In this document: positions 35,768 through 52,631 of the stretch, piece after piece | Layout of the letters: each line of letters opens with the position of its first letter | How positions within the stretch are numbered: position 1 is the stretch's first letter | Source: Lachnospiraceae bacterium | GTDB lineage: Bacteria > Bacillota > Clostridia > Lachnospirales > Lachnospiraceae | Length of the DNA: 64,000 nucleotides | Assembly (NCBI GenBank): GCA_024696005.1 | Contig: JAILHF010000052.1 | Location: forward strand, 248,001 to 312,000 | Direction of reading: 5' to 3' | Position numbers and translations under genes: made by a program | Notes under the pieces: generated by a model | What the model saw: the letters and a program-made list of their open reading frames with translations, nothing else | Database searches by the model: none | What the model was told of the DNA's origin: nothing

Positions 35768-36553
35768 TTGGATGCATCGACCGTCAATAACGAAAAGATC
35801 TCTGTCCGGAACGTGGATTTTTCCTATCGGAAGCACCATGTCCTGGATCATCTGGAATTCGACCTCCCCCTGGGCGAGAGCATCGCGGTCCTCGGGGCCA
35901 ACGGCAGCGGGAAATCCACGCTGCTTTCCATCCTTTCCGGCGTGCGGCGCTGCCACGGAGCAAGCATGGAGTACCGCGGGCACGACCTTACCCGGGACAA
36001 AAAGCTTCGCAACCGCCTGATCGCCTATGTGCCGCAGACCGATCCGCTCCTGCCCGAGCTCTCGGTATGGGACAATCTGCTGCTCTGGTTCCACGGTCCC
36101 GCGTCCGGTCTGAAAGAGGCCCTGACGCTCCCTTCCGTGGAAATGCTCCGGATCGACGAATTCATAAAAAAACCGGTACGCGCCCTCTCCGGAGGCATGC
36201 GCAAACGCGTCAGCCTTGCCACCGCCCTCATCAACGATCCGCAGATCCTGATCATGGACGAACCGGCCGCCGCGCTGGACCTGTGCTATAAAGCCGAGAT
36301 CCGGGAATTCCTCTCCCGCTTCCATCAGAGCGGAAAAACCCTGATCCTCACGACGCACGATGAGGAAGACCTTTCCATCATCACGCTGCTCTATCTTTTG
36401 AAGGATGGCCATCTGTACCGTTCCCCGCGCGTGCTGCGGGGCGATGAACTGGTATCGGTGATCCGCGGCGATATCGACATCTCCCGGATCATGACGGGCG
36501 CTCCGGCAAACGCCGGGGACGCTTTCCCCACGGGAGGCTCCGATGTTTCTTAA
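35768..36553 (+). CDS. ABC transporter ATP-binding protein (ABC-2 exporter)
   Basis: Cytoplasmic ATPase of a three-gene exporter. The 261-residue product has Walker A GANGSGKST, a Q-loop YVPQTD, signature LSGGMRKRVSLA, Walker B ILIMDEPAAALD and the switch His in LTTHDEED. The start is a TTG at 35768 with AAAGGAGACG eight bases upstream; no nearby ATG in frame keeps the first strand. It overlaps the following permease gene by 11 bases. The cargo is unknown. Confidence 0.9.
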   Translation: MDASTVNNEKISVRNVDFSYRKHHVLDHLEFDLPLGESIAVLGANGSGKSTLLSILSGVRRCHGASMEYRGHDLTRDKKLRNRLIAYVPQTDPLLPELSVWDNLLLWFHGPASGLKEALTLPSVEMLRIDEFIKKPVRALSGGMRKRVSLATALINDPQILIMDEPAAALDLCYKAEIREFLSRFHQSGKTLILTTHDEEDLSIITLLYLLKDGHLYRSPRVLRGDELVSVIRGDIDISRIMTGAPANAGDAFPTGGSDVS

Positions 36554-37736
36554 GCTGCTCCGTCTGGAACTGAAGAAAAGCCTGTGCTGCATCCCGGTCC
36601 TTTTGGCCGGAACGCTGCTCTTCGGCGTGCTCTTTTCCCTGGTGGGCCTGGGGCTTTCCCGGGTGATCTACTCCAGCGAAGCCATTGCAAGAGCCAGCGT
36701 GGCCGTGGTCTCCAAAGACGAAGACAACCGCTATATCGACATGGCCATCGATTACGTGGGCGGCATGGAATCGGCTGCCCTGGCCCTCGATTTCGAGATC
36801 ATGGAGGAGGAAGAAGCCATGAACGCCCTCTCCCGCGGCCGGGTCATCGCCGTGATGCTGCTGCCCGAGCATGTGGTCGAAGGCATCCTTTACGGGGAAA
36901 ACTATCCGGTGCGCATCCTTTTTTCCAATGAAAGCGCCCTGGCCTCCGTATTCCTGACCGAGCTCACCCGCTCGAGCATGATCATGCTGTCCGCAGCCCA
37001 GGCTTCCACCTATACCGCTGCCGAGCTTTATTACAACAGCGACCGCGCCTCCGAGCTGAATGCGGCCTACAACGACATCGATCTGATGAATTTCAGTTAT
37101 GTGCTCAGCCGGGAGCGCCTCTTCGTTGACGAGGATGCCCTGCCGCCCTTCATGAGCTTTGTGGCCACCGGCATCCTGCTCCTGCTCTGTTTTTCCCACA
37201 TCTGCTATGCGCCGGCACTGCGAAGGGAGGATACTTCCTTTTACCAGCTGCTCTTCACAAGACAGGTCACTCCGGAGCTCTATCTGTGCGTGAAATATCT
37301 CGTCAACACGCTTTGCTGCTTTGTGCTGCTATTCGCCGCATTCCGGATCGCCGGATCGCTGGACCTTCCCCTGGACGGACTTAAGATCCACATGGGAGGC
37401 GGAGCCGCGCTGCTCCTTCTGCTGTGCGCCGCCCTGCTCACCTCCTTCGCCCTGCTCCTGGAACAGATCTTTTCCGATGCGGGCGCCGTAATGATGGAGA
37501 TCATCTTCAGCATTGCCATGCTGTTTGCCGGCGGAGCCATCCTTCCGGCGGCCTTCCTGCCCTCCGGGCTGTTAAAGGTCGGAAGATTTCTTCCTTATTC
37601 CCTCCTGCACGGCGAATTCCTGAAGCTCCTGACGGGCAGCTACGAGTTTTCCGTGCTGCCGCTCGCGCTTTACAGCCTGGGCTTTTTCGCGGCAGCCGCC
37701 CTGCTCTTCAGGCTTCGAAAGGAGGCACGCGCATGA
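36543..37736 (+). CDS. ABC-2 type permease subunit (first)
   Basis: A 397-residue membrane protein with one N-terminal helix, an extracytoplasmic domain of about 170 residues, and five or six C-terminal helices, the usual ABC-2 exporter layout. The soluble part includes GRVIAVMLLPEHVVEGIL, typical of YhgE/ABC-2 ectodomains. It starts inside the ATPase gene and ends overlapping the next permease gene (ATGA), so the three genes are coupled. It probably forms a heterodimer with the next product. Confidence 0.88.
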   Translation: MFLKLLRLELKKSLCCIPVLLAGTLLFGVLFSLVGLGLSRVIYSSEAIARASVAVVSKDEDNRYIDMAIDYVGGMESAALALDFEIMEEEEAMNALSRGRVIAVMLLPEHVVEGILYGENYPVRILFSNESALASVFLTELTRSSMIMLSAAQASTYTAAELYYNSDRASELNAAYNDIDLMNFSYVLSRERLFVDEDALPPFMSFVATGILLLLCFSHICYAPALRREDTSFYQLLFTRQVTPELYLCVKYLVNTLCCFVLLFAAFRIAGSLDLPLDGLKIHMGGGAALLLLLCAALLTSFALLLEQIFSDAGAVMMEIIFSIAMLFAGGAILPAAFLPSGLLKVGRFLPYSLLHGEFLKLLTGSYEFSVLPLALYSLGFFAAAALLFRLRKEARA

Positions 37737-38848
37737 ACCCTTTCCGTCTGTTATTCTTCCGGACAAGGCAGCTGCTCTGCCACCCCTTCTTCCTTCTGCT
37801 GCTTTTGCTGATCCCCGTCGTGGCTCTCTTAAACGGCGCGGCCGGCCCCGTCGAGGAAAAGGACGACACGATCGCAGCCGGCTTCTGCATCTGCAGCCCC
37901 GACCTGTCGGAGGGCAGATCTTTTGAAGACGAAGCCGAAGGGGAACCTCCTGCCGGCGAATACCTGGCCGACATGGAAAAACTGCGGGATGCTCTCTGCA
38001 AAAGCGATTCCGTGTTCCGTTTCGTCCCCTACGATTCCCTTTCGGAGATCAAGGCCACGATCGCCTCGGAAGAGATCGAATGCGCCTATCTGATCCCCGA
38101 GGATCTGTTCGAATGCCTGGCAGACGGCAAAAAAAAGAACCTCGTGGAGGTCCTTTCTTCTCCGAAGAGCACCATGGTCCCCGTGGTAAACGAGGAAGTG
38201 TATGCCCTGATCTTCCGTCAGCTGGCTCCCGTGATCCTTGCGAATTATCTTTCGGACCGAAGCGCGATCGCCGATCTGATCCCGGATCCCATCGAAGAGG
38301 AACAGATCTTTTCCCTGCATGAGACCCTGCTCGGCAACGGTTCCACCTTCGCGATCGAATTCGACAACGCCCCGAAGGATTATGTGATCCGCAAGCAGTC
38401 GGTACTGCTCTCTCCCTTAAAGGGCCTGTTTGCGCTGCTGATCCTGCTTTCGGGCTTCACCGGAGCCCTGACCTATTACCGCGCGGCGGAGCATCCCATT
38501 TACGCCAGGCTCTCCGTCCGCATTGTGATGATCCTCTCCCCGATGCTGCTCGCGGCCCTGCCCGTCCTGCTGTGCATGATCCTGCTGCCGGGCATTCCCG
38601 GTGTGGAACGCAGCATCCCCGGCATTGCTGTGGAACTGGCACGCATCCTGCTCTATCAGCTGCTGTGCCTGGCTTTCCTGCTCCTTCTGACTGCCCTGAT
38701 CCGCAGCCGTGCGCTGATCTATGCTTTCCTGCCGGTCTACCTGCTCTCCTGCCTGATCTTCTCGCCCATCTTCGTGAACGCGGGACAGTTCATGCCCTTC
38801 CTCGGAAAACTGAGCTGGTTCTTTCTGCCGACGTATTATCTGCTGTAA
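37733..38848 (+). CDS. ABC-2 type permease subunit (second)
   Basis: A 371-residue membrane protein of the same layout as its neighbour: an N-terminal helix (FFLLLLLLIPVVALL), an acidic ectodomain of about 190 residues with EIECAYLIPEDLFECL, and a C-terminal helical bundle. Sequence similarity to the first permease is low outside the fold. ATG 37733 follows AAGGAGGCACGCGC; the reading frame is open further upstream but that part lies inside the preceding gene. A bidirectional terminator follows directly. Confidence 0.87.
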   Translation: MNPFRLLFFRTRQLLCHPFFLLLLLLIPVVALLNGAAGPVEEKDDTIAAGFCICSPDLSEGRSFEDEAEGEPPAGEYLADMEKLRDALCKSDSVFRFVPYDSLSEIKATIASEEIECAYLIPEDLFECLADGKKKNLVEVLSSPKSTMVPVVNEEVYALIFRQLAPVILANYLSDRSAIADLIPDPIEEEQIFSLHETLLGNGSTFAIEFDNAPKDYVIRKQSVLLSPLKGLFALLILLSGFTGALTYYRAAEHPIYARLSVRIVMILSPMLLAALPVLLCMILLPGIPGVERSIPGIAVELARILLYQLLCLAFLLLLTALIRSRALIYAFLPVYLLSCLIFSPIFVNAGQFMPFLGKLSWFFLPTYYLL

Positions 38849-38878
38849 AAAACCGGCCGGGAATCCCCGGCCGGTTTT
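38849..38878. terminator. Bidirectional intrinsic terminator
   Basis: A 13-bp stem AAAACCGGCCGGG/CCCGGCCGGTTTT with loop AATC has a T-run on both strands. It ends the ABC exporter (plus) and the FliD-like gene (minus). Confidence 0.9.
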
Positions 38879-38900
38879 CATCACTTGACTGGAATCTCTT

Positions 38901-39848
38901 TCAGTTTTCTCCGTTCAGCTCCGCGATCTGACGGTTCAGCTCCGCGATCTGCTTGTCGTAATCCCGGATCTTGTCCACGCTGTCAAGCTTCTCATACTCT
39001 TTGCTCAGCTTGTCTCTCTGCTCCTGCAGGGAACGGATCTTATCGGCATCCGTTTCGCTAAGTGTCACCTTGTCCTGCTTCTCTTCGCTCTCCGCGGACT
39101 TTTCCTCTTCCGCACCCGTCACACGGGCGATCGTTTCCTCTGCAAGCGACTTCGTCTGCGGCGTCCATCTGGCATCCCGGCCATAGATCGCCTCGGTATT
39201 CTGCGTGGCCCTGCTGATGCTGCCCGCTTTGGCGCTCACCTGGGACGCATAGGAATTCACGCCCCGGAATACACTCTTTACCGTAGCGGTATTGGCAGTC
39301 TTGAAAGCCTCTTCATCAAAGCTTAACTTGTCGTCCGCGCCGATGCTGATGCCCACTTCCTTCAGCACGTTGCTGTTCTGGCGGCTCATGCCTGCCATCC
39401 AGCTTCCGGTGCGGAGCACACTCTTCGTCTCCGACTCTCCGGCCGAATCGATGGCGGCATTGTAGGCTTTCACAAAGTCCTTTACCGCTCCCGCGAGCTT
39501 GTCCCGGTCCGCGAATTCTTCCTTCGGCCGCCCGTTTTCATCCTTTGTCTCTTTTGTCTCAAAAAGCTTGTCGTTTTGGAACGCGTCCGCGGCTGCTCCC
39601 AGCTTGTCCGCATCCTCCTTGATGGACGTGAGCTTGGCATCGGTATCGCCGTCTACCGCCTTTGCTCCCGCCTTCTCTTTCGCATAATAGTTTTTCAGCA
39701 GCTTTCCGTAGCTGCCGTTGCGCACGGAGGCCACATCCGAAAGATCCAGCCCCAGTATGCTGCTGTAATCCACACCCGACTTCTGATTGGAAGTCCCGAA
39801 CAGAGCGGAATAATCCACTCCTCCTCCTAATCCGCTGATTCCCGCCAT
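38901..39848 (-). CDS. FliD-like protein of unknown role (315 aa)
   Basis: Not firmly identified. The middle region resembles the C-terminal domain of flagellar cap proteins: FVKAYNAAIDSAG, LKEVGISIGADDKLSFDEEAF, then a predicted coiled coil at the C-terminus rich in Lys, Glu and Gln (last 60 residues). The N-terminus is Gly/Ser/Tyr-rich with a twice-used GVDYS motif (GVDYSALFG, GVDYSSILG). No signal peptide is visible, as expected for axial proteins exported by a type III system. At 315 residues it is shorter than most FliD, and no flagellar gene is nearby. GGGAGGAGAAGG precedes ATG 39848. It has its own promoter and a terminator. Confidence 0.6.
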   Translation of the reverse strand: MAGISGLGGGVDYSALFGTSNQKSGVDYSSILGLDLSDVASVRNGSYGKLLKNYYAKEKAGAKAVDGDTDAKLTSIKEDADKLGAAADAFQNDKLFETKETKDENGRPKEEFADRDKLAGAVKDFVKAYNAAIDSAGESETKSVLRTGSWMAGMSRQNSNVLKEVGISIGADDKLSFDEEAFKTANTATVKSVFRGVNSYASQVSAKAGSISRATQNTEAIYGRDARWTPQTKSLAEETIARVTGAEEEKSAESEEKQDKVTLSETDADKIRSLQEQRDKLSKEYEKLDSVDKIRDYDKQIAELNRQIAELNGEN

Positions 39849-39894
39849 AGCCTTCTCCTCCCTGATCTGCATGACAAACTGCGGTTACAGACAA

Positions 39895-39923
39895 ATTATA
39901 GCATAAAAACAGGGCAGCGGCAA
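39895..39923 (-). promoter_or_regulatory. Promoter of the FliD-like gene, overlapping a terminator
   Basis: TTGCCG (39918-39923), 17 bases, then TATAAT (39895-39900) preceded by TGC, an extended -10. The -35 lies in the loop and arm of the upstream operon's terminator hairpin. Confidence 0.7.
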
Positions 39924-39934
39924 GCTGCCCTGTT
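39905..39934 (-). terminator. Intrinsic terminator of the GGDEF/EAL-queH-argS-hydrogenase operon
   Basis: ACAGGGCAGC/GCTGCCCTGT stem with a five-base loop, followed by TTTTT on the minus strand, 27 bases after the stop codon of the hydrogenase-like gene. Confidence 0.85.
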
Positions 39935-39960
39935 CTCACAAAAAACTTCACTGTTCCGTC

Positions 39961-42558
39961 TTACGACAGCGCCGGCTGAAAGACGATGGCCTCCTCCGGC
40001 GGTATCGGCCGGCTGAAATAGTAACCCTGTATCGTATCGGCTCCGAAATCCTTCAGACGGCGGTACTGCGCGGCTTCTTCCACGCCCTCCACCGTCATCT
40101 CCTTGTCCAGATCGTGGACCAGGCGGATCACGTCATTGATGAAAGCCTCTTTCCCCTCCACCAGGTAATTGTCCACAAAGGACTTGTCCAGCTTGACCAC
40201 ATCCACGGGGATGTAAGACAGTGAACCCAGCGAGGAAAATCCCGTGCCGAAATCGTCCATGAGCAGGCGTATCCCCAAGTCCTTCAGACGGGCAAAAAAC
40301 ATCTCGGCCTGCGAGCTCCGCTCCAGGAAAAGTCCTTCCGTGATCTCGATCTCCAGGTATTTCGCTTCCATATCGTATTTTTTCAACAGCTGATGCAGGA
40401 ATTCCACATAACCGCCATCCGAAAGCTGCATGCTGGAATAGTTGACGGAAACCGGGCAAAGCACATGCCCGGCATCCCTCCAGGCCGCCAGTTGTTTCAC
40501 CACCATCTCGGTGGTGATCCGTCCGATCCGCCAGATCCAGCCGTTCTTTTCTGCGACCGGGATGAACTGTCCGGGATAAAGCCCCGGCTCCCTCATGCGC
40601 ACCAGTGCCTCATAACCCGTAAGTTTCAGGGTCTTTACATCCACTTTCGGCTGATAGAGCATGTAGAAACCGTCGTTATCAAAGGCTTCCAGGATCTTGC
40701 CGCGGATGCGCTTTTCTTCAGCCGCTTTTTCCTGAAGCTCGCTGCCGTAGAAAACGGTCCGGTTCTGTCCCGCGGCTTTCGCCGAAAACATCGCTTCTTC
40801 CGCGTTGTTGATATGGTCCTCCACACCGAGAACGCCGTCCGCATTGGTCACCCCCATGCTCACGGTGATCTCCAGATGGATGTTTCCGATATCGATGGGC
40901 TGTGTCGCCACCTCACGGATCTGCGCCAGGGCAGGATGGTCCTCCGAAAGAGGCGTATCGAGCATCAGAAGGAACTGGTCGCCTCCGTAACGCGAAAGAA
41001 GCCAGCGGTTTTCCAGTGCCAGCATCTTCAGCCCCAAAGCCACGTGCTTTAACACCTCATCCCCGAATTCATGCCCGTAGGTCGCGTTGATGCCCTTGAA
41101 GCCCTCGATGTCGAGCATGATGAAGGAATTGCAGTCCCAGGATTTCTTCGCTTTTGCAAGGAATTCCAGGGCATAGTGACGATTATAGATATCCAGCAGT
41201 TCATCGTGCTGGGCCTGATAGATCAGGCTCTGCTGTTCCGTTTCCACCGTGCTCTTCAGATAATGAACACAGTTTTCCCTGTGATTGAATCCGTTATGGA
41301 TCGCAACGGCCATCTCCCTGCAGGAATTGTAGCCGCAGCTGCTGCAGTTGATCGAACGGGAGACCTTCGTGTCCTTCCCCATGGACTGGAAGACCTTTTC
41401 CATTTCATTCCAGTCGGGGATGCGGATCGCGCATTCCCCCGAGCGGTCCGAGTAATGCCGCAGATAATCGGAAAGTTCCAGATCCGCAAACTGCCTGTTG
41501 AGGGCATCCAGGCGCTCTGCGGGCGTCAGCTTTCTCGATACCGCATCCTCCCCGTCATCTTTTTTCACGCTTTCCCGGATCTTCAAAAGATTGAACAGCG
41601 CCCGGTCCGTGGACGACAGTTCCGGATCCGTGGCCGTGCCGCAAAGACAGCCCTTCTCACAGTTCAAGGCATCGATGAACAAAAACGGGATCTCCCGGTC
41701 CTTAATGCTCTTTGCATGAGCCTTCAGATATTCATACATGTGGCGTTCGCCTTCGATCTGCCGGATAAAAGCCCCGTCTCCCAGAAGCCATTTCGCATAA
41801 TCCCTGAGGCCGCCGGGCATGGGATAGATGGAGCCGAGACCATATTCCACCTCGTCCCCCGTGGGAGCGCCGTACAGCTGCTCCGCGCGCACCCTTTTCA
41901 TGAAGTGATCAAACGTGACGTTATAGGAAACCAGTCCGGCATTCTCCGGATCATCGATCTCGATTTTTTTTGCGATGCAGGGACTTAAAAAAGCGAAACG
42001 GTCCGTGATGCCCAGCTCTTTCCTGGCGTAGATCGCCGCGCACATCAGCGGGCTCTGTACCGGAAACAGGCTGGGGATCAGTTCCGGCAGATACTTTTCG
42101 ATATAAGAGACTACCGCGGGACAGGGCTGCGAGATCCCTCCCTTGAAGCCCGCCTCCTGCATGTAGCGGATGTAGCCCCAGGTAGTGATGTCCGCGCCGA
42201 AGGATACATTGATCAGATGCTTCACCCCCAGTGCCTTCAGGCCACCGAGGACGCGGTCGTATTCCTCCGGATAATTTGCCCGGAATGCCGGGGCGATCAG
42301 AAGGGAGATCTCTTCTCCCGCGGCCAGATCCGAAAGGAAGCGGTCGGTATCGTCATTGTATTCCCTCGCATCGTGCTCACAGGCATCAAAACAGGCCCCG
42401 CAGCCGACGCAGCGCGCCGGATCCACGTTGATGCGGGAACGCCCTTCGGCATCCGCTTCCGTGGAAATGCAGGCGCCCATTGCACTGCAGACATTGATGC
42501 ATTTATTGCATCCCACACAATTCTCATTCGTATAGATCAGGCCTTGTTCCTGGATCAC
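39961..42558 (-). CDS. [FeFe]-hydrogenase-like sensor fused to GGDEF and EAL domains
   Basis: An 865-residue fusion. Residues 11-65 hold two 4Fe-4S ferredoxin motifs (CVGCNKCINVC, CVGCGACFDAC). Residues 80-320 match the H-cluster domain of sensory-type [FeFe] hydrogenases: QPCP (C146), SPCIAKKIE (C194) and ALNCEKGC (C300, C304). An extra Fe-S motif follows, C405, C408, C413 and C430 (NCSSCGYNSC). The GGDEF domain (445-600) reads GGDQF at 525-529, so it is probably not a cyclase. The EAL domain (615-860) has EAL 650-652, VNYSS, EIEITEG, DDFGTGFSS, VVKLDKS and VEGVEE, so it is probably an active phosphodiesterase. No membrane helix. The start is GTG 42558 with CCGGAGGAAG upstream. I infer H2 or redox control of c-di-GMP breakdown. 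Confidence 0.9.
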   Translation of the reverse strand: MIQEQGLIYTNENCVGCNKCINVCSAMGACISTEADAEGRSRINVDPARCVGCGACFDACEHDAREYNDDTDRFLSDLAAGEEISLLIAPAFRANYPEEYDRVLGGLKALGVKHLINVSFGADITTWGYIRYMQEAGFKGGISQPCPAVVSYIEKYLPELIPSLFPVQSPLMCAAIYARKELGITDRFAFLSPCIAKKIEIDDPENAGLVSYNVTFDHFMKRVRAEQLYGAPTGDEVEYGLGSIYPMPGGLRDYAKWLLGDGAFIRQIEGERHMYEYLKAHAKSIKDREIPFLFIDALNCEKGCLCGTATDPELSSTDRALFNLLKIRESVKKDDGEDAVSRKLTPAERLDALNRQFADLELSDYLRHYSDRSGECAIRIPDWNEMEKVFQSMGKDTKVSRSINCSSCGYNSCREMAVAIHNGFNHRENCVHYLKSTVETEQQSLIYQAQHDELLDIYNRHYALEFLAKAKKSWDCNSFIMLDIEGFKGINATYGHEFGDEVLKHVALGLKMLALENRWLLSRYGGDQFLLMLDTPLSEDHPALAQIREVATQPIDIGNIHLEITVSMGVTNADGVLGVEDHINNAEEAMFSAKAAGQNRTVFYGSELQEKAAEEKRIRGKILEAFDNDGFYMLYQPKVDVKTLKLTGYEALVRMREPGLYPGQFIPVAEKNGWIWRIGRITTEMVVKQLAAWRDAGHVLCPVSVNYSSMQLSDGGYVEFLHQLLKKYDMEAKYLEIEITEGLFLERSSQAEMFFARLKDLGIRLLMDDFGTGFSSLGSLSYIPVDVVKLDKSFVDNYLVEGKEAFINDVIRLVHDLDKEMTVEGVEEAAQYRRLKDFGADTIQGYYFSRPIPPEEAIVFQPALS

Positions 42559-42590
42559 GTTTCTTCCTCCGGCAAATGCAAACTAATTCT

Positions 42591-42812
42591 TCAGATGTCC
42601 ACGCTTCCGCTGATGCTGCCGTCATTGGCCGTATAGTATGCCTTGCCGTCCTCGGGCTTTACATAGATCTTCAGATCCTTCAGTTTCTCCTTGTGAGAAG
42701 CCTTGTAAGCCGCCTTCACCTTTTTGCCGATCTCATCCATGTTATACTGCCGCTCATCCAGCTCCAGAAAGATCTTCGTTTTCCCCGTGTACTCCCCTGT
42801 TTTGTTTTCCAT
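42591..42812 (-). CDS. DUF6465-family small protein
   Basis: A 73-residue protein of a family found in Lachnospiraceae and relatives, with no assigned function that I know of. It has KIFLELDERQYNMDEI, a basic AYKASHKEKLKDLKIYVKPED stretch and a C-terminal AYYTANDGSISGSVDI segment. No signal or membrane segment. ATG 42812 follows AGGAGG by eight bases; a longer reading from 42857 lacks a ribosome site. It lies between argS and the hydrogenase-like gene in the same direction. Confidence 0.75.
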   Translation of the reverse strand: MENKTGEYTGKTKIFLELDERQYNMDEIGKKVKAAYKASHKEKLKDLKIYVKPEDGKAYYTANDGSISGSVDI

Positions 42813-42860
42813 CTCATGAACCTCCTGACTGTATTGCTCGTATGTGTTCCGTCCCAAGTC

Positions 42861-44684
42861 TTACATGCGCTCCGGTGCCGAAAAGCCCAGCAGACCGATG
42901 CATTCCTCCATCACCGCCAGTACCGCCCGGATCAGGCCGATGTAGCCTGCCTGCTTCTTCTCATCCGGCTCCGCAAGGATCTTTGTCTCATGATAAAAGC
43001 TGTTCAGATCGTTTGCCATCTGATACAGGTACGCACAGACCTTGTGGGGAGCCCTCTCCGCAAAGGCCTCATCGATCATGCGGATAAAGCCGCTGATGTC
43101 CTGACAAAGCGCCTTCATGGCCTTCCCTTCGGGTATCGGGAAGGAAGCCGCAAGCTCCGCCGGCAGGGAAGCCCCTGCCTTCTCCTCATATTTCCGAAGG
43201 ATCGACTTGATGCGGGCCATGGTATAGAGCAGATAAGGTCCCGTATCTCCCTCCGACGCGGTAAAGCGCTCCACGTCAAAGATATAATCCTTGGCTGCCT
43301 GATTGGAAAGATCTCCGTATTTCAGGGCTGCCAGCGCCGTGATCCGTGCCGTCTGCCAGGCCTCTTCCTCGCTCATGGGCGCATCCGCATTCTCCGTCTC
43401 CCGGATCTTGGTATGCATCTTCTCTGCGATCTCATCAAGCAGTGCCTTCAGCTGCAGCACGCCGCCGTCCCTGGTCTTGAAGGGCTTGCCTCCGGGCCCG
43501 TTCATGGTACCGAAGCCGATGAACTCCAGCCCGGTCTCTTCCCGGACCAGACCGCATTTTCTCGCACAGCGGAACACCTGGACAAAATGCAGTTCCTGCC
43601 GCTTATCCACGACATACAGGATCTTATCGGGCTTTAACTCCTTCTCTCTCCAGAGGATCGTGGCCAGATCCGTGGTCTCATAATTGGCCGCACCGTCACT
43701 CTTGAGGATCATGCAGGGAGGCAGCTCCTTTTTGTCGCTCTCCTCCTTCACATCCACCACCAGCGCCCCTTCGGATATGTGCGCCAGCCCCTTTGCCTTC
43801 ATGTCATCGACCATGGCCGGGATCAGATCGTTCACATCGCTCTCTCCCATCCACAGATCGAATTCGATATCCATCTTCCGGTAGTTTTCCTTCAGATCCG
43901 GCAGCGACACCGCCATGATATGCTTCCAGAGCGCCCGGTATCCCCGTCTTCCCTGCTGCATCTCGCGCGTGGCCTGAAGCGCCCTGGCATGGTATTCCTT
44001 CGCCGCCTGCTTCACTTCTTCCGGATCATCCTCCTTCGACTTGCTCTTCGCGCTGGCCGTGGGATAGATCTCCTCCAGCTCCTTTAAGCTGAAGGGCGGC
44101 TCCTCGGGATACTCGCCCTCGTAAGCCTCGTCAAAATACGGCAGATCGGGCTGCCGCTCTCCAAGCTCCACGATCACCAGTCCCATCTGCAGGCCCCAGT
44201 CCCCCAGATGCACGTCTCCGGTCACATCGTGCCCGGCAAAACGCGCGATGCGCTTGATGCTCTCGCCGATCACCGCCGGGCGCAGATGCCCCACATGCAG
44301 GGGCTTCGCCACATTCGGCCCGCCGTAATCGATCACGATCTTCAGGGGCTTTTCGGGTGCTTCCACGCCGAATTTATCACTTGCAAGCATTTCCCGTACA
44401 TAAGCTGCCAGATACTCCTCGTTCACATTCAGATTGAGGAAGCCCGGCATCACGGCCTCCACGGAAGAAAAGGTCCCGGAGGCTTTCAACTCCTCCGCCA
44501 CCGCATTGGCGATGTCGATCGGCTTCTTTCCGTATTTCTTCGCCCCGGCCATGGCGCCGTTGCACTGGTACTCGCACAGATCCGGGCGGTTGCTGATCCC
44601 CACCCTGCCAAGGGCAGCATCAAAGCCCGCCTTTTCAAAGGCAGCGCCCATCTCCTCACTCAACTGATCCAAAAACTGTTTCAT
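42861..44684 (-). CDS. argS: Arginyl-tRNA synthetase
   Basis: Class I synthetase charging tRNA-Arg. The 607-residue product has the HIGH motif as HVGHLR after GGPNVAKPLHVGH, the LGDWG motif, and lacks a canonical KMSKS, as is normal for most ArgRS. The C-terminal helical anticodon-binding domain ends with IGLLGFSAPERM. ATG 44684 starts the family sequence MKQFLDQL; it overlaps the 3' end of queH by 29 bases. Confidence 0.97.
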   Translation of the reverse strand: MKQFLDQLSEEMGAAFEKAGFDAALGRVGISNRPDLCEYQCNGAMAGAKKYGKKPIDIANAVAEELKASGTFSSVEAVMPGFLNLNVNEEYLAAYVREMLASDKFGVEAPEKPLKIVIDYGGPNVAKPLHVGHLRPAVIGESIKRIARFAGHDVTGDVHLGDWGLQMGLVIVELGERQPDLPYFDEAYEGEYPEEPPFSLKELEEIYPTASAKSKSKEDDPEEVKQAAKEYHARALQATREMQQGRRGYRALWKHIMAVSLPDLKENYRKMDIEFDLWMGESDVNDLIPAMVDDMKAKGLAHISEGALVVDVKEESDKKELPPCMILKSDGAANYETTDLATILWREKELKPDKILYVVDKRQELHFVQVFRCARKCGLVREETGLEFIGFGTMNGPGGKPFKTRDGGVLQLKALLDEIAEKMHTKIRETENADAPMSEEEAWQTARITALAALKYGDLSNQAAKDYIFDVERFTASEGDTGPYLLYTMARIKSILRKYEEKAGASLPAELAASFPIPEGKAMKALCQDISGFIRMIDEAFAERAPHKVCAYLYQMANDLNSFYHETKILAEPDEKKQAGYIGLIRAVLAVMEECIGLLGFSAPERM

Positions 44685-45321
44685 CTTCTGTCTCCTTTTT
44701 CTGCCTTTCCCGCTCTGCCTTGCTGAATGCGCAGCCGCAGTAATCCTGACGGTAGAGGCCGTATTTTTTTGATAATTCAATGGAACGCTTGTAACCGTTC
44801 CGTTTCTTGAAATCGGATGTCAGGTATTCCAGGCCGAAGCCCTCCGCGATCCCGCATCCCAGCGTATTCAAAAGCTCCGCGTTTTTCAGCGGAGAGATCG
44901 TAAGCGTCGTCGTAAAAAGCCTGAAGTCGTGTTCTTTCGCATGGCGCGCCGTCTCTTCAAGCCGCAGTTCAAAACATTTTTCACAGCGTTCTCCTCCCTC
45001 GGGACAGGTCTCCAGCCCCTTCGCTCTTTCCAGAAAGCGCTCCGGTTCATAATTCCCTTCCGCAAAGCCAAAGCTCACCCCGAGCTCTTCGCCCATCAGA
45101 CGCAGAAGCTTCTGCTGCTCCTTCACACGGTGTTCGTATTCCCCGCGCTCCGTGATATTGGGGTTATAGTAGAAAACGGTGATATCGAAATAAGCCGAAA
45201 GATACTCCAGGCAATAACTGCTGCAGGGTCCGCAACAGCTGTGGAGCAGCAGCCTCTCTTTTCCCGTCCTGCCTTCGATCCTCTGTTCCAGTTCTTTCTG
45301 ATAATTACGCTTTGTCCCCAT
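44656..45321 (-). CDS. queH: Epoxyqueuosine reductase QueH
   Basis: Metal-dependent enzyme that performs the last step of queuosine synthesis in tRNA, replacing QueG in many anaerobes. The 221-residue product contains LLLHSCCGPCSS, the ERCEKCFELRLEETA region and QDYCGCAFS, the conserved cysteines of the family. ATG 45321 was chosen because it begins the family sequence; the upstream open stretch lies in the previous gene. It overlaps the preceding GGDEF/EAL gene and argS, implying coupling. Other queuosine genes are not in the window. Confidence 0.93.
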   Translation of the reverse strand: MGTKRNYQKELEQRIEGRTGKERLLLHSCCGPCSSYCLEYLSAYFDITVFYYNPNITERGEYEHRVKEQQKLLRLMGEELGVSFGFAEGNYEPERFLERAKGLETCPEGGERCEKCFELRLEETARHAKEHDFRLFTTTLTISPLKNAELLNTLGCGIAEGFGLEYLTSDFKKRNGYKRSIELSKKYGLYRQDYCGCAFSKAERERQKKETEDETVFGSVE

Positions 45322-47578
45322 GTCCGTAATAACGTGTGATGAAATCGGGCTCCGGTACCGGGCGCGAGAAATAGAAGCCCTGCACGATGTTGCAGCCGAT
45401 CTCCTGCAGGAACTGCACCTGTTCCTCGCTTTCCACACCCTCGCAGATGATCTCCATCCCCAATCCGTGCACCAGTTCGACGATCTTTCGGATAACAAGC
45501 CTCTCCTTCTCATTGGAGCTGCTGTGCGCAAAGAATTTACCGTCGATCTTGATCACATCAAAGGGCACTTCCGTCAGCATGTTCAGCGAAGAATACCCCG
45601 CGCCGAAATCGTCCATGGCCAGGCTCACACCCAAAAGCTTCAGCCGCCGCACGATCCCGATCATCTCTTCCTTTTCATTATCAAAAACGCTCTCCGTGAT
45701 CTCCAGCTCGATCATATTGCCCGGGATGGAATACTGCTTCAGGATCTTTTCGACATTCTCCACGTAATCCGGGCTGTGAAGGAGCAGGCGGGACTGGTTC
45801 ACGGAAACGGGCAGCACCTCGATCCCCTCGTCCATCATCTCCCGCATGCGCATGCATACCGATTCCAGCGTGTAGAAATCCAGCTGTTCGATAAAACCGT
45901 TGTTCTCAAAGATGGGGACAAAACTGTCCGGCTGGATCACGGTCCCGTCATTCCTCATCCAGCGGACCAGGGCCTCGGCGCCTTTCACGGCATTGTCCCT
46001 GATATCCAGCTTCGGCTGCAGAAAGACTTTGAATTCGTTTTCCGCCAGAGCCTTCTGCATGGAGGATTCGATGTGATCCACCTTGCGCATGTCATCCACG
46101 ATGCTCTCGGAATAGACGGCCTTCATCTCTTTCCCGTCGCTGCTCAGGGTCCTCCTGGCCACATTCGCGTGATCGATCATCACATCGATATCGTGATCGT
46201 GCTTTTTGATCGGGTAGATCCCGTATTTAAACCGGACCGGATACTTGATCCCGTATCCGCGGGCATCTGCATTCACGCCCGCCGTGAAATCGTCTATGTG
46301 CTTTTCCTGCCTGGAGTCGTTGACCAGAAGCGCCAGGAACTGGTCCGCGTCCATGCGCACGCAAAGCTCCCTCGCGGAAAAGATCTGCCGGAAATTGCTG
46401 ATGCAGCTGACCAGCACCTTGTCCGCCCTCAGATGGCCGTATGACTCATTGATATAGCGGAAATTCATGATATCAAAACGGTAGATGACAAACGGCACCT
46501 CCGGCGAATTGATCATGATCCCCGGCGCATGCTCCCGGAAATAGTTCAGATTATGTCCCCCGGTAACGGGATCCTCGTACGCCAGCCGCTCCACGGTCAG
46601 GTTGGTGCGCTTTGCCGTGGCCCATACATAGGTCAGGGCCCCGATCATCAGGAACATGATGATCATGCAGGCCAGGACACTGCGGAAGATCAGGGGACGG
46701 ATCTCGGCATCCACCAGATCGTCCTTATAGCAGCTCACAAAGAATTCATGTGATGCGTTGCGCAGCGGCGAATAACTGATCTGTATCCGGTAACCGTAAC
46801 TCGTGGTAAAGGTCACGTAACCGCTCGCCTTCTTGGAAAAATCATAATTCAGCTCCTGGATCGCCCGCCGGCTGTTCTCCTCGCCCTTCGAATACGCAAG
46901 GATCCCCAGCTGGAAGCTTTCCGCATTGCTGTCCACGATCACATAATCATCATTATAGGCAATGATCTCGCCGACATCGCTGACGACCAGGCACTCGCCC
47001 TTTTCAACCTGGTAACGGAAGCCTTCCATGTCGAAAAGCGCTTTGGAATCCATGGCCGCGAAAAGATAGCCGTCCTGTTCTCCTCCCCGGCTTACGGGCA
47101 CGGCGAGCATTTCCCTGGTCCCCAGGAAGACCTTGACCGAAACGGGCGCAAGGCCTGCAAAAAAGCCCTGTTCATTCATCTCGAGCCCGTCCAGCTGCGT
47201 TACGATCCGTTCATGGTCTTCCTCTTTGCCGAGCGCGCCGAAAACCGTCCCGTCCTTCCGGACATAACGCAGATCCAGATACGGCTGCAGCTCCTCAGCC
47301 GAAACAATGGCTTCCTGCAGCTCTTCATCGGGAAGCCCGGTCAGCCTCTCCGCCACAGCCTTCATGTATCGTCCCCGTTCCAATAAAAGACTGTCGAAGA
47401 AATCCCCGACATTCAGATGCTGCTGATGAAAATCTTCCGCAACTTGTTCGCGGAAAGAGTTCTGAAGGCCCAGAACCAGCGTAATGCAGGTCATGATACA
47501 GATAAATAACAGCGAAAATCCAACCCACAGGATATCAGCAACCGCTTTTTCCTTCCCGGATCGTCCTTTTACCGGCAT
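45305..47578 (-). CDS. Membrane GGDEF/EAL protein, probable c-di-GMP phosphodiesterase
   Basis: A 757-residue membrane sensor. Two membrane helices (about 15-38 and 300-319) flank an extracytoplasmic region of about 260 residues, Cache-like in layout. The GGDEF domain (325-490) reads DADQF at 410-414, which should abolish cyclase activity. The EAL domain (500-750) is intact: EAL 535-537, VSVNQSR, ELEITES, DDFGAGYSS, VIKIDGKF and CEGVES. ATG 47578 follows TAAGAGGG closely. It heads an apparent operon with queH, argS, the DUF6465 gene and the hydrogenase-like EAL protein. The ligand is unknown. Confidence 0.92.
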   Translation of the reverse strand: MPVKGRSGKEKAVADILWVGFSLLFICIMTCITLVLGLQNSFREQVAEDFHQQHLNVGDFFDSLLLERGRYMKAVAERLTGLPDEELQEAIVSAEELQPYLDLRYVRKDGTVFGALGKEEDHERIVTQLDGLEMNEQGFFAGLAPVSVKVFLGTREMLAVPVSRGGEQDGYLFAAMDSKALFDMEGFRYQVEKGECLVVSDVGEIIAYNDDYVIVDSNAESFQLGILAYSKGEENSRRAIQELNYDFSKKASGYVTFTTSYGYRIQISYSPLRNASHEFFVSCYKDDLVDAEIRPLIFRSVLACMIIMFLMIGALTYVWATAKRTNLTVERLAYEDPVTGGHNLNYFREHAPGIMINSPEVPFVIYRFDIMNFRYINESYGHLRADKVLVSCISNFRQIFSARELCVRMDADQFLALLVNDSRQEKHIDDFTAGVNADARGYGIKYPVRFKYGIYPIKKHDHDIDVMIDHANVARRTLSSDGKEMKAVYSESIVDDMRKVDHIESSMQKALAENEFKVFLQPKLDIRDNAVKGAEALVRWMRNDGTVIQPDSFVPIFENNGFIEQLDFYTLESVCMRMREMMDEGIEVLPVSVNQSRLLLHSPDYVENVEKILKQYSIPGNMIELEITESVFDNEKEEMIGIVRRLKLLGVSLAMDDFGAGYSSLNMLTEVPFDVIKIDGKFFAHSSSNEKERLVIRKIVELVHGLGMEIICEGVESEEQVQFLQEIGCNIVQGFYFSRPVPEPDFITRYYGHGDKA

Positions 47579-47613
47579 CCCTCTTACCCCCGTTTGAAAA
47601 ATACCTAAGTGTC

Positions 47614-47622
47614 AGTATAGCA
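47614..47622 (-). promoter_or_regulatory. Extended -10 promoter of the GGDEF/EAL-queH-argS operon
   Basis: TGCTATACT on the minus strand is a good extended -10, 36 bases before the start codon; the -35 region (TGGAAC) is weak. Confidence 0.55.
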
Positions 47623-47660
47623 CATCGAATGTCTCAGTTCCATAAAACTTCACAAAAAAC

Positions 47661-47689
47661 TTGCGTTTCTTTTCACAATTATATAAAAT
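47661..47689 (+). promoter_or_regulatory. Promoter of the MoxR/DUF58/transglutaminase operon
   Basis: TTGCGT (47661-47666), 17 bases, TAAAAT (47684-47689), 28 bases before the moxR-like start codon. Confidence 0.7.
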
Positions 47690-47717
47690 TAGAGAAATCT
47701 CATTCGGAGGCATTCTG

Positions 47718-48650
47718 ATGTACGATATTCCTGAAAAGATCACAAGCGAGATCCGGAAAGTCATCCACGGAAAGGATGAAGTGATCCGGATGACCCTGTG
47801 TGCCATCCTGGCCGGAGGACACGTTCTTCTGGAGGATATCCCCGGCGTCGGAAAGACTACCCTTGCCGTAGCCTTTTCCCGCGCCCTTTCGCTCTCTTAC
47901 CGCAGAGTACAGTTCACCCCCGACGTTCTTCCGTCGGATCTTCTCGGTTTCAAGCTCTATGACAAGGCAAGCGGCGAATTCCGTTTCCAGGAAGGTTCCA
48001 TTTATACCAATCTGTTCCTGGCCGACGAGATCAACCGCACCTCGCCCAAGACGCAGTCCGCTCTCCTGGAAGTCATGGAAGAGCGCCATGCGACGGTCGA
48101 AGGCGAAACGCGAGAGCTTCCGAAACCTTTTTTTGTTTTGGCAACACAGAATCCCTTCGGTTCTTCCGGCACGCAAAAGCTTCCGGAATCCCAGCTTGAC
48201 CGTTTCATGATCTGTCTGAGCATGGGATACCCGGCTTTCCACGATGCCGTCTCCATCCTGAAAGGCGACTCCAGCGTGGATCTGCAGAGCGTGCAGCCCG
48301 TGATCGGCGCCGAGGAACTGATCGCCATGCAGGCTGTCGTCCATGACCTCTATGCGGACGACCAGCTGTTCGAATACGTGGTCCAGCTCAGCGAACAGAC
48401 CAGGGTCCCCGAATTCTTCTCTCTCGGCTTAAGCCCCCGCGGCTCCATCGCCCTGATCCGGATGGCACGAGCGCGTGCGTTCTGCTGCGGGCGCAATTAT
48501 GTGCTGCCCGAAGACATTCATGATGTCTTCTATGCCGTGGCCGGACACCGCGTGCATCTCAACGCCCGCATGAAAGCCGAGGGCGTCACGCTTCCCGACA
48601 TGCTCTGGCGTGTCCTTCACCAGGTCAGCATTCCCAAGGTGGGCGCATGA
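47718..48650 (+). CDS. MoxR-family AAA+ ATPase
   Basis: A 310-residue AAA+ protein thought to act as a chaperone for the neighbouring DUF58/VWA protein. It shows Walker A DIPGVGKTTLA, Walker B FLADEINRTSP, the sensor segment LATQNPFGSSGTQKLPESQLDRF and a C-terminal lid domain with SPRGSIALI. ATG 47718 follows TTCGGAGG by eight bases. It overlaps the DUF58 gene by four bases. The MoxR, DUF58, transglutaminase order is widespread and usually uncharacterised. Confidence 0.93.
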   Translation: MYDIPEKITSEIRKVIHGKDEVIRMTLCAILAGGHVLLEDIPGVGKTTLAVAFSRALSLSYRRVQFTPDVLPSDLLGFKLYDKASGEFRFQEGSIYTNLFLADEINRTSPKTQSALLEVMEERHATVEGETRELPKPFFVLATQNPFGSSGTQKLPESQLDRFMICLSMGYPAFHDAVSILKGDSSVDLQSVQPVIGAEELIAMQAVVHDLYADDQLFEYVVQLSEQTRVPEFFSLGLSPRGSIALIRMARARAFCCGRNYVLPEDIHDVFYAVAGHRVHLNARMKAEGVTLPDMLWRVLHQVSIPKVGA

Positions 48651-49669
48651 GGAAACGCAACCTCGTCTATATCATCACTTACAGCCTGGCCGTCTTCCTC
48701 ATTCTGCTCGGAACGGTCTTTTACCGGCAATCCCTGCTGACGGTCCTTCTGCTTCTTTTGCTCCTGCTCCCGGTGATCTCCATCTCGGCCACGGCCGCCG
48801 CACTCCGGAAACTGACCATCACCGTTGAAATGCACCAGGCCGAGATAACGGCCCCGAACGAACTGCGGGTCCTTTTCCGCCTGAAGAACGATTCCATCTT
48901 TCCGCTGCTCAACCTGGATTTCCTCTTCACCTTCGGAAACGGCTTTTTCCCGTCCCTTCCGCCGCAGGAGCTCACCCTCTTCGCCGAAGGGCGTCGCACG
49001 CGTGAATATACGCTTCCTTTCGAAGTTGCCGCCGCCGGAATGTTCTCCATTCACATAGACGAAGTCTATGCCACGGATTTTCTTCACTTTTACAGTTTCC
49101 GCCTTCCTTTCCGCTACTCCGCGGAACTTCCCGTCCTGCCGCCCACGCTCGAGCTGCCTCCCATCACTCTGGGCAAGGCCCTGATCGAGAGCGAGGACAG
49201 CGAGCCCTCTCCGGACGGCGATCTGACGCAGGATCTTCTGGAGATCCGTGAATACCGCCCCGGAGACCGTCTGAAGGACATCCACTGGAAAATGACCGCA
49301 AAGACAGACGAACTGAGCGTCAAGGAATATGAACGCGCCAGGGACCTGTATTTCCTTCTGCTTCCCGAACTGGAGGGAAACTTCCTGCAGCGAAACCTTT
49401 CCCTCTTTTTCAGCATCGGGAAACGGCTCCTGAAGGAACAGGAGCGTTACCGTGTCGCGATCTACCACAGCGGAGACCGCAGCTTCGAATTCCTCCGTGT
49501 CGGCAATGAGGAGGACCTTTTGCAGGCCCTCTACCGCCTGTATCTGGAGCCCTCGGAGCGCATTTCAACGGCTTACGAATCCCTCTCCGAGCAGTATCCG
49601 GACATGCAGGGCGTGATCCGCATACACGGCGGACAGATCCTGTCATCGGAGCTTTCGGGAGCCGCTTAA
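48647..49669 (+). CDS. DUF58 domain protein
   Basis: A 340-residue membrane protein with two N-terminal helices (about 5-45), a beta-rich middle, and the DUF58 signature IREYRPGDRLKDIHWKMTAK near residue 200, which resembles the start of a von Willebrand A fold. It probably works with the MoxR ATPase on assembly or maturation of an extracellular or envelope component; its direct role is unknown. It overlaps moxR by four bases and is followed after 62 bases by the transglutaminase gene. Confidence 0.9.
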   Translation: MRKRNLVYIITYSLAVFLILLGTVFYRQSLLTVLLLLLLLLPVISISATAAALRKLTITVEMHQAEITAPNELRVLFRLKNDSIFPLLNLDFLFTFGNGFFPSLPPQELTLFAEGRRTREYTLPFEVAAAGMFSIHIDEVYATDFLHFYSFRLPFRYSAELPVLPPTLELPPITLGKALIESEDSEPSPDGDLTQDLLEIREYRPGDRLKDIHWKMTAKTDELSVKEYERARDLYFLLLPELEGNFLQRNLSLFFSIGKRLLKEQERYRVAIYHSGDRSFEFLRVGNEEDLLQALYRLYLEPSERISTAYESLSEQYPDMQGVIRIHGGQILSSELSGAA

Positions 49670-49731
49670 GCGTTACGGTTCGGCTTCCGACGGCCACCGG
49701 ACGGCAAGCCGGCAAATGATAAAGGATAGTC

Positions 49732-52422: not shown

Positions 52423-52447
52423 CAAGTGCAAACTTATCTGCTAAAAT
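52419..52447 (+). promoter_or_regulatory. Promoter of tRNA-Leu(AAG)
   Basis: TTGACA (52419-52424), 17 bases, TAAAAT (52442-52447) with a preceding TGC. The -35 overlaps the stop codon of the transglutaminase gene; the hexamer ends 11 bases before the tRNA. Confidence 0.85.
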
Positions 52448-52458
52448 ATCGTTTGTTT

Positions 52459-52542
52459 GCGGGAATGCTGGAATTGGCAGACAGGCTAGACTAAGGATCT
52501 AGTGGATGTATTTCCGTGAGGGTTCAAGTCCCTTTTCCCGCA
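52459..52542 (+). tRNA. tRNA-Leu (anticodon AAG)
   Basis: An 84-base class II tRNA. The acceptor stem is GCGGGAA/TTCCCGC, the anticodon stem CTAGA/TCTAG encloses loop CTAAGGA with anticodon AAG, there is a long variable arm, and the T loop is TTCAAGT. The 3' CCA is not encoded. It has its own promoter and a terminator. Confidence 0.93.
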
Positions 52543-52544
52543 GC

Positions 52545-52580
52545 AAAAAACCGTCTATGATATATGGGCGGTTTTTTTTT
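52545..52580 (+). terminator. Terminator of tRNA-Leu(AAG)
   Basis: AAAACCGTC pairs with GGGCGGTTTT (one G-T pair) around a 9-10-base loop, followed by a run of nine T. Confidence 0.8.
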
Positions 52581-52631
52581 CAAACTTTTCGCCCTCGGGC
52601 AGAGCCATCATCAAACACAGGAGGAATCAGC

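Follow-up and report, generated by a model that had tools for sequence, protein, structure and literature searches.

The gene at positions 39961..42558 on the reverse strand of the window (the 64,000-nucleotide stretch of DNA analysed here) raises the question of whether hydrogen, sensed by a hydrogenase-like module, can set the turnover of c-di-GMP within one polypeptide. With a GTG start and a single open frame, it encodes an 865-aa fusion of an H-module with GGDEF and EAL domains. We therefore asked what each part has kept, how the fusion is distributed, and which function fits it best.

Domains and cluster ligands of the fusion protein

All features described here lie on the reverse strand. 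From the N-terminus, two [4Fe-4S] ferredoxin motifs (residues 13-64, 42367..42522; Pfam Fer4_7, 3.2e-07) are followed by the H-cluster domain Fe_hyd_lg_C (residues 84-307, 41638..42309; 3.7e-24, 86.2 bits against a cut-off of 22.1), which was aligned in part to solved hydrogenases, and by the C-terminal Fe-S domain PF04060 with Cx2Cx4Cx16C spacing (residues 403-431, 41266..41352; 5e-06). The GGDEF domain (residues 449-600, 40759..41214; 1.4e-25) and the EAL phosphodiesterase domain (residues 621-851, 40006..40698; 6e-59, 199.7 bits against a cut-off of 31.3) complete the protein. Given these E-values, the domain matches are beyond chance. The cysteines within residues 1-440 include eight in the ferredoxin part (14/17/20/24 and 50/53/56/60), those at 146, 194, 300 and 304 in the H-cluster domain, and 405/408/413/430 in the Fe-S domain. 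A first-pass annotation had described two ferredoxin motifs, an H-cluster-like domain with these four cysteines, a further Fe-S motif, a GGDEF motif altered to GGDQF and an intact EAL domain, and each of these was recovered at the correct residues.

Sequence alignment places Cys146 (42121..42123) in the L1 motif QPCP and Cys194 (41977..41979) in the L2 motif SPCIAK, and both match hydrogenase cysteines of chain 7p5h_A. Since this local alignment stops before the third motif, the L3 ligands Cys300 (41659..41661) and Cys304 (41647..41649) were assigned from the Pfam match and the family alignment. In the H-module alignment (143 rows retained from 163 matches after removal of partial and near-identical ones), the four ligand columns are Cys in 133/133 rows not labelled group A. 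The annotation had named misalignment of these cysteines with hydrogenase positions as grounds for dropping its reading; they do align with hydrogenase ligands, so this objection falls. In CpI numbering, Ser192 is the equivalent of M353, Leu298 of M497 and Lys197 of K358, the last being Lys in 129 of the same 133 rows. Pro145 stands at the position of the proton-relay Cys, C299, whose loss is seen in sensory hydrogenases; this change and the exact Cx2Cx4Cx16C agree with how sensory groups C and D have been described (PMC8163306). The same genome carries the HydE, HydF and HydG genes.

A catalytic hydrogenase of group A or B was ruled out, as the NCBIfam models scored far below their cut-offs (TIGR02512 for group A, 85.7 against 405.95 bits; TIGR04105 for group B, 115.7 against 450 bits) and the proton-relay Cys is lost. 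Elsewhere in this genome, a separate group B enzyme scored above the cut-off (587.9 against 450 bits). Within the sensory types, the assignment is mixed. The first-pass annotation had called the module HydS-like, of group C, and its two N-terminal [4Fe-4S] motifs, four ligand cysteines, C299 loss and C-terminal Cx2Cx4Cx16C are all those of group C. In a tree of H-modules with classes labelled by proxy, including no named HydDB reference or TamHydS sequence, it adjoins MCP-linked proteins, in a wider branch that also includes PAS-kinase types (group C-like by the proxy label), and the rows labelled group D-like by proxy only (L159, L177, L164, L165, L131 and L160) form a separate starred branch. 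Against group C, Ser and Leu at the M353 and M497 positions match what has been reported in TamHydS, an enzyme of group D, and group D (M2e) is described by replacement of M353 with Ser or Thr and by the lack of PAS (PMC8163306). The window protein has Ser192, and no PAS domain, which the M2f definition places after the Fe-S domain, was found by Pfam at E 0.001 in the 865 aa. Close relatives mostly carry an MCP domain after the H-module. The HydS-like character stands, and the group C label is supported in part, by proxy placement in the tree.

Comparison with two sensory enzymes shows the same mixture. TmHydS of Thermotoga maritima (group C), as described in PMC8163306 and PMC10055695, shares the two N-terminal clusters, an H-domain without C299 and Cx2Cx4Cx16C, but it ends in PAS, which the window protein lacks, and has Gly/Ser rather than Ser/Leu at the M353/M497 positions. 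TamHydS (group D, M2e) shares M353 to Ser, M497 to Leu, the lack of PAS and the C-terminal Fe-S motif (PMC8163306), but has no fused output (PMC13104023), whereas the window protein carries GGDEF-EAL.

The two halves of the tail differ in what they have kept. E650, N706, E741, D768, D769, K789, E824 and Q844, which we take to be the EAL catalytic positions, are present in the window protein and in 20/20 aligned rows (8 window-type fusions, 2 fusions of a second type and 10 unfused proteins). The GGDEF domain has GGDQF at residues 525-529 in place of an intact GG(D/E)EF active site. The motif is intact in 9/9 unfused tail relatives (L012 left out) but in 2/8 window-type fusions, the other six having [GS]GDQF. 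The catalytic Glu is thus lost in 6/8 fusions, and the window domain keeps its metal and GTP residues. Because L183 and L185 keep GGDEF, we discarded the idea that this domain is always degenerate in the fusion clade. The annotation's suggestion of an allosteric GTP-binding module that feeds the EAL domain would fit the kept residues, though two of the eight fusions retain an intact GGDEF motif. Of the solved chains, DosP comes close to this half, behind 4rnh/4rnf and 5m3c. The window also encodes two other GGDEF-EAL proteins.

Spread, origins and constraint of the fusion

The same architecture was found at eight distinct loci (the window, L004-L006 and L182-L185), so an assembly chimera was ruled out; a further contig, G709:C133, shares an identical 500-base stretch with L004 and was counted with it as one sequence. 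Occurrence is patchy, with window-type fusions in 5/35 genomes of the genus. The junction lies at residues 439-445 (41224..41244), where identity switches between two sets of relatives: identity to MCP-linked proteins falls from 0.61 at 433-438 to 0.28 at 439-444 and 0.03 at 445-450, and identity to unfused GGDEF-EAL proteins is 0.45 at 445-450 and 0.65 at 451-456. Among relatives, the H-module is joined to MCP (the commonest output), histidine kinase, sigma-54 activator, GGDEF alone, GGDEF+HD-GYP and GGDEF-EAL. That one module has been exchanged between so many signalling outputs supports a sensor role.

The H-module probably met GGDEF-EAL at least twice, though modules may instead have been swapped on an older fusion. 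A single clade of GGDEF-EAL-linked H-modules was rejected (p-AU 0.0047, for a group named after a quick tree had been seen and with L086 and L087 as long branches), but a single clade, and so one origin, of the tails was not (p-AU 0.135, in a tree that left out the window's other two GGDEF-EAL proteins); one origin is thus rejected for the H-module only. The second GGDEF-EAL clade is eroded, with Arg (L081, L086) or Ile (L087) at the Lys358 position and a degenerate EAL domain in L086, so H2 sensing need not hold for every fusion. By its tail, L012 nests among window-type fusions, yet it has no H-module within the 8.5 kb examined.

In pairwise comparisons among the window gene, L004, L005 and L006, the H-domain was more constrained (dN/dS 0.060-0.101; 4/6 pairs, two being saturated) than the EAL (0.108-0.180; 6/6 pairs) or GGDEF domain (0.192-0.316; 6/6 pairs), and the ferredoxin part (0.047-0.136; 5/6 pairs) was about as constrained as the H-domain; these values are rough because dS was mostly >1. 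No conserved neighbour was found on either side by tblastn of 13 genes of the window (35768-54647) against 11 loci, so an operon partner was rejected and we propose no accessory gene. Across the genome there are 57 GGDEF matches (55 above the cut-off) and 3 flagellin-type matches. A search for c-di-GMP-I riboswitches gave 0 matches in this genome, but also 0 in the control genomes, and so carries no weight.

Sensor, catalyst or relic

The sequence evidence supports the fusion, proposed in the first-pass annotation, of a HydS-like H-module to a predicted c-di-GMP phosphodiesterase, and we consider it probable that the protein is a soluble, cytoplasmic, H2/redox-gated enzyme of this kind. The strongest competitor, which we regard as unlikely but worth keeping in view, is a redox or iron-sulfur sensor without H2, in which the phosphodiesterase would be set by [4Fe-4S] clusters only or by an H-cluster that reports the ferredoxin redox state (or CO/O2 damage). 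The eight ferredoxin and four Fe-S-domain cysteines would allow three clusters besides the H-cluster, redox-gated c-di-GMP enzymes are well known according to PMC8846402, and electrons in TamHydS have been proposed to travel mainly through the N-terminal clusters (PMC13104023). Against this competitor, the L1-L3 motifs and the equivalent of Lys358, features associated with the 2Fe subcluster, are kept in 8/8 window-type fusions; HydEFG is present, and the H-domain has diverged less than the EAL and GGDEF domains.

That the H-module is a true catalyst, with the EAL domain merely localizing or regulating it, seems very improbable to us. Its complete ligand set and ferredoxin relay would suit catalysis, and TmHydS and TamHydS are described as keeping low H2 turnover (PMC8163306, PMC10055695), but Pro145, the low group A and B scores, the group B enzyme already in the genome and the occurrence of the same H-module on many signalling outputs argue against it. 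We give equally little credit to a relic, in which H2 gating was lost and the module serves as a structural scaffold or dimerization cap for a constitutive phosphodiesterase. The eroded second clade and the lack of the module in L012 point that way; in window-type fusions, however, no cysteine of the H-cluster or of the C-terminal Fe-S domain has been lost (8/8), the eight ferredoxin cysteines are retained in 4/4 checked (of 8), and constraint on the H-domain is stronger than on EAL or GGDEF.

For the H2/redox-gated phosphodiesterase, the domains with their ligands and catalytic residues, the genes for maturation, the repeated swapping of modules and the junction were read from the sequence, whereas we infer solubility, cofactor loading, H2 as the signal, the coupling route and the sign of the effect. 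HydE, HydF and HydG would supply the [2Fe] unit to the cubane that Cys146/194/300/304 hold. H2, by binding or being turned over, or a redox equivalent through the two ferredoxin clusters, would then alter the H-domain. With Pro in place of the proton-relay Cys, slow turnover and a persistent reduced state are to be expected, as would suit a sensor. This alteration may travel through the C-terminal Fe-S domain, probably acting as a structural coupler, and a short, presumably helical linker (about residues 433-450) into the GGDEF-EAL pair. There, the GGDEF half should have lost c-di-GMP synthesis but could retain GTP binding and control the EAL half, where c-di-GMP would be hydrolysed. By analogy, our guess is that reduced, H2-rich conditions turn the phosphodiesterase on, giving low c-di-GMP and motile cells. 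Reduced-state-active phosphodiesterases (Bhr-HD-GYP, PdeC and CdgF) are listed in PMC8846402, but RmcA, in the same table, is activated by the oxidized state and counts against this sign.

Hydrogen and c-di-GMP signalling in fermenting bacteria

Kinase-, MCP- and phosphatase-linked sensory [FeFe] hydrogenases have already been proposed, as C1-C3 in HydDB, whose table has no c-di-GMP subtype among [FeFe] enzymes (PMC5037454); fusion to a c-di-GMP enzyme would add a further output to these. The nearest relatives carry the same H-module (~65% identity) on an MCP domain and presumably belong to the putatively chemotactic C2 of that table, and the genome itself encodes a paralogue of this kind (L002; 56% identity). 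The window output differs from C2 in being GGDEF-EAL, so the signal would reach a second messenger, not CheA. Putative [NiFe] group 2c, as listed in PMC5037454, shares the idea of tying H2 sensing to c-di-GMP, but with an unrelated hydrogenase linked to a diguanylate cyclase rather than a fused phosphodiesterase. DosP/PdeO and Bhr-HD-GYP likewise join a gas or redox sensor to a phosphodiesterase in one chain, but their sensor is heme or hemerythrin, according to PMC8846402, instead of an H-cluster module. We found no report of an H-module fused to a c-di-GMP enzyme in the open-licence literature, and no characterized member of this fusion type in the accessible text of the literature searched. 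The accessible sections of PMC12727194, PMC3543383 and PMC4510573 contain no such fusion, and the mention of EAL in the first concerns [NiFe] neighbourhoods.

The existence of sensory [FeFe] hydrogenases has long been suspected, and a 2026 paper on TamHydS calls identification of the signalling partner critical (PMC13104023). A one-chain fusion with a measurable output, c-di-GMP hydrolysis, makes the partner question directly testable in vitro. If our reading is right, the H-cluster would be added to the sensors recognized in c-di-GMP networks; in a 2022 census, the terms hydrogenase, molecular hydrogen, iron-sulfur and Fe-S occur 0 times in the main text (PMC8846402).

We see even chances for the broader proposal that H2 sets c-di-GMP turnover directly through an organometallic H-cluster in one polypeptide, that the module is wired into many output classes (chemotaxis, kinases, sigma-54, cyclases, and EAL and HD-GYP phosphodiesterases) in Lachnospiraceae and other families of the phylum, and that H2 thereby acts as a general signal inside the cells of fermenting communities. 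Loss of GGDEF activity after fusion would in that case be a specialization into a pure H2-gated phosphodiesterase. The level of H2 shapes rumen fermentation and methane formation, and through such a fusion it would also be tied to the motility or attachment of fermenters. H2 or redox state could thus directly set the choice between swimming and sticking in a fermenting gut-type bacterium.

Domain order and H-cluster positions

The gene at 39961-42558 on the minus strand is a single frame encoding 865 amino acids, in which Pfam places a dicluster ferredoxin domain (residues 13-64), Fe_hyd_lg_C (residues 84-307, 3.7e-24), a FeS domain (residues 403-431), GGDEF (residues 449-600) and EAL (residues 621-851, 6e-59). 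The first-pass annotation had placed the cysteines of a hydrogenase-like H-cluster domain at residues 146, 194, 300 and 304, and these positions were confirmed. When aligned with the solved hydrogenase chain 7p5h_A, C146 and C194 correspond to the second Cys of TSCCP and the Cys of MPC, respectively, and Pro145, just before C146, takes the place of the proton-relay Cys. Since this local alignment stops ahead of the third motif, C300 and C304 were assigned by matching to the Pfam model and by aligning the family. Spacing in the last Fe-S motif is exactly Cx2Cx4Cx16C, as described for groups C and D by Land et al. (PMC8163306).

These positions were examined in aligned rows picked for coverage of the H-cluster motifs L1-L3 (143 kept of 163 hits). 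Among the 133 rows not labelled group A, the four H-cluster columns were Cys in all 133 and the K358 column (CpI numbering) was Lys in 129, while the columns of C299, M353 and M497 held Pro in 96, Ser in 88 or Gly in 36, and Leu in 111, respectively. All four cysteines of the Fe-S domain stood in the right columns in 115/133 rows, with gaps in 17 and one cut row. The ten group A-labelled rows (L097-L105, L158) had Ser in the C146 column, which may reflect a true variant of the motif or an effect of the alignment, and gaps at L3 in five.

In the six pairs among the window fusion and its relatives L004, L005 and L006, dN/dS was 0.060-0.101 for the H-domain (four pairs; two saturated), 0.047-0.136 for the ferredoxin part (five pairs), 0.108-0.180 for EAL and 0.192-0.316 for GGDEF (all six pairs each), values that are good for ranking only, since synonymous change was near saturation. 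Judged by this ranking, the H-domain is not in decay. We call the protein a putative HydS-type module with c-di-GMP output. In HydDB (PMC5037454), putative [FeFe] enzymes are kinase-linked (C1), chemotactic (C2) or phosphatase-linked (C3), and a putative cyclase-linked class is [NiFe] group 2c; H2 sensing by a PAS-type group C enzyme was proposed in Ruminococcus albus (PMC6776011). Among the open-licence PMC papers listed, none was seen to describe the fusion of an [FeFe] H-domain with EAL, GGDEF or HD-GYP.

The hydrogenase-like module as a portable input

Using residues 1-440 as query (E <= 1e-60), at least 63 of 299 family genomes and at least 24 of 398 phylum genomes were matched, both being lower bounds with no more than five (family) or four (phylum) candidates scored per genome. 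Output domains were scanned by Pfam in 30 H-module proteins; for the remaining rows, as for the window-type fusions L004-L006 and L182-L185, labels came from motif and alignment only, and the trees use proxy group labels. The chemotaxis signalling domain (MCP) was the commonest label by motif, in 55 of the 127 rows of the H-module tree. By Pfam, the outputs were MCP (L002, L119, L147, L148), MCP with receiver (L047), histidine kinase (L051, L079, L112, L114, L115, L117), HATPase with CheX (L150 659-4054), sigma-54 activator (L113, L134, L167, L168, L170, L171, L178), intact GGDEF alone (L144 418-2253), GGDEF with HD-GYP (L169 636-3092) and GGDEF-EAL (L078, L080, L081, L086, L087); L120 had PAS only, and L121, L123 and L159 had no output domain. 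For L151 460-3864, the HATPase and CheX order is presumed only from its place beside L150 in the tree. The sigma-54 fusions, some of which contain PAS, are candidates for one-chain H2-to-transcription control, and L169 and L144, both from genomes outside the host family, are possibly an H2-gated HD-GYP phosphodiesterase and an H2-gated cyclase, respectively.

Assembly of the GGDEF-EAL fusions

Three named full-length relatives were found, all of them MAGs: L004 (Lachnospiraceae, water buffalo rumen), L005 (titled Ruminococcus sp., Tb.RUG.21) and L006 (Lachnospiraceae, RUI362), where we take RUG and RUI to denote rumen sets. Within the genus, the whole-protein query matched 25 of 35 genomes by any part of it (E <= 1e-100), and the window-type fusion was present at near full length and 73-100% identity in five (the own genome, G701, G704, G707 and G709); two more (G712 and G716) carry a type of fusion at 33-35% identity. 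In G701 (L189 3702-12568), about 4.3 kb separates the gene for the GGDEF-EAL fusion from that for the MCP fusion, and the MCP fusion gene immediately follows one for a membrane-type MCP that is 69% identical to the window MCP at 52506-54647.

In the 127-row tree, starred branches force both of the two changes that the nine GGDEF-EAL rows require; L169 stands apart from these rows, grouped with L121 and L136 (99*), and L144 lies in a weakly resolved fork. A more careful 47-row tree rejected a single clade of GGDEF-EAL H-modules (p-AU 0.0047, for a group chosen with the quick tree already seen and with L086 and L087 as long branches), whereas a single clade of tails was not rejected in the tail tree of 24 rows (p-AU 0.135). 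The trees thus indicate two or more encounters of the H-module with GGDEF-EAL, but the tails may nonetheless share a common origin.

The junction was profiled with four fusions against ten MCP-linked and eight unfused proteins. Likeness of the window-type fusions to MCP-linked relatives extends through residue 438, with identity of 0.61 at 433-438, 0.28 at 439-444 and 0.03 at 445-450, and identity to unfused GGDEF-EAL proteins is 0.45 from residue 445 and then 0.65. Identity to the unfused tail relatives was 53-58% for records from Butyrivibrio, Treponema and Lachnospiraceae, 48-50% for Oribacterium and 65% for L012. The seven of ten with a full N-terminus have a long N-terminal part that reads like a membrane-anchored receptor; Pfam scans of L026 and L032 assigned it no name at 1e-4.

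GGDEF was intact in 9/9 unfused relatives, with L012 left out, and in the window-type fusions L183 and L185, the other six of eight carrying [GS]GDQF. L012 is nested by its tail among the fusions and carries GGDQF, with no H-module in the 8.5 kb of its sequence covered. The simplest order is loss of the cyclase site after the fusion event. The EAL positions were conserved in 20/20 compared rows; among five second-type fusions compared, they were lost in L086. The window GGDEF half retains Asp483, Asn491 and Asp500, presumably metal and GTP residues by PleD, and because these remain, the idea that it may act as an allosteric GTP site is kept alive.

Proposed signal transfer and the host genome

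Groups C and D lack the proton-relay Cys, and the characterised enzymes of these groups, TmHydS and TamHydS, show low activity with reduced states stabilised (PMC8163306, PMC10055695, PMC13104023). TamHydS has Ser at M353 and Leu at M497, the same pair as the fusion. Because its C-terminal cluster is reported to show no reduction at 1 atm H2 (PMC13104023), we prefer a conformational path, in which the signal would pass via the Fe-S domain and linker, over an electron relay. The sign of regulation leans by analogy on Bhr-HD-GYP, PdeC and CdgF, phosphodiesterases active in the reduced state, although RmcA, in the same table, has the opposite direction (PMC8846402).

The genome around the window is 3.75 Mb and has three Fe_hyd_lg_C proteins: the group B enzyme L001 (587.9 bits against a cut-off of 450), L002, in which an H-module of the fusion's kind is joined to an MCP signalling domain, and the fusion itself. 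The HydG, HydE and HydF genes are all above cut-off and grouped on contig C59, and there are 57 GGDEF matches (55 above cut-off) and three flagellin N-domain matches. The window has two further GGDEF-EAL genes (28841-32059 and 45305-47578) on the same strand as the fusion, the nearer about 2.7 kb upstream of it. On contig C48, a CheC-like gene lies 43 bases after the group B [FeFe] hydrogenase gene (L001 871-3058) on the same strand, and this neighbourhood is a further hint of a tie between chemotaxis and H2 metabolism in this organism.
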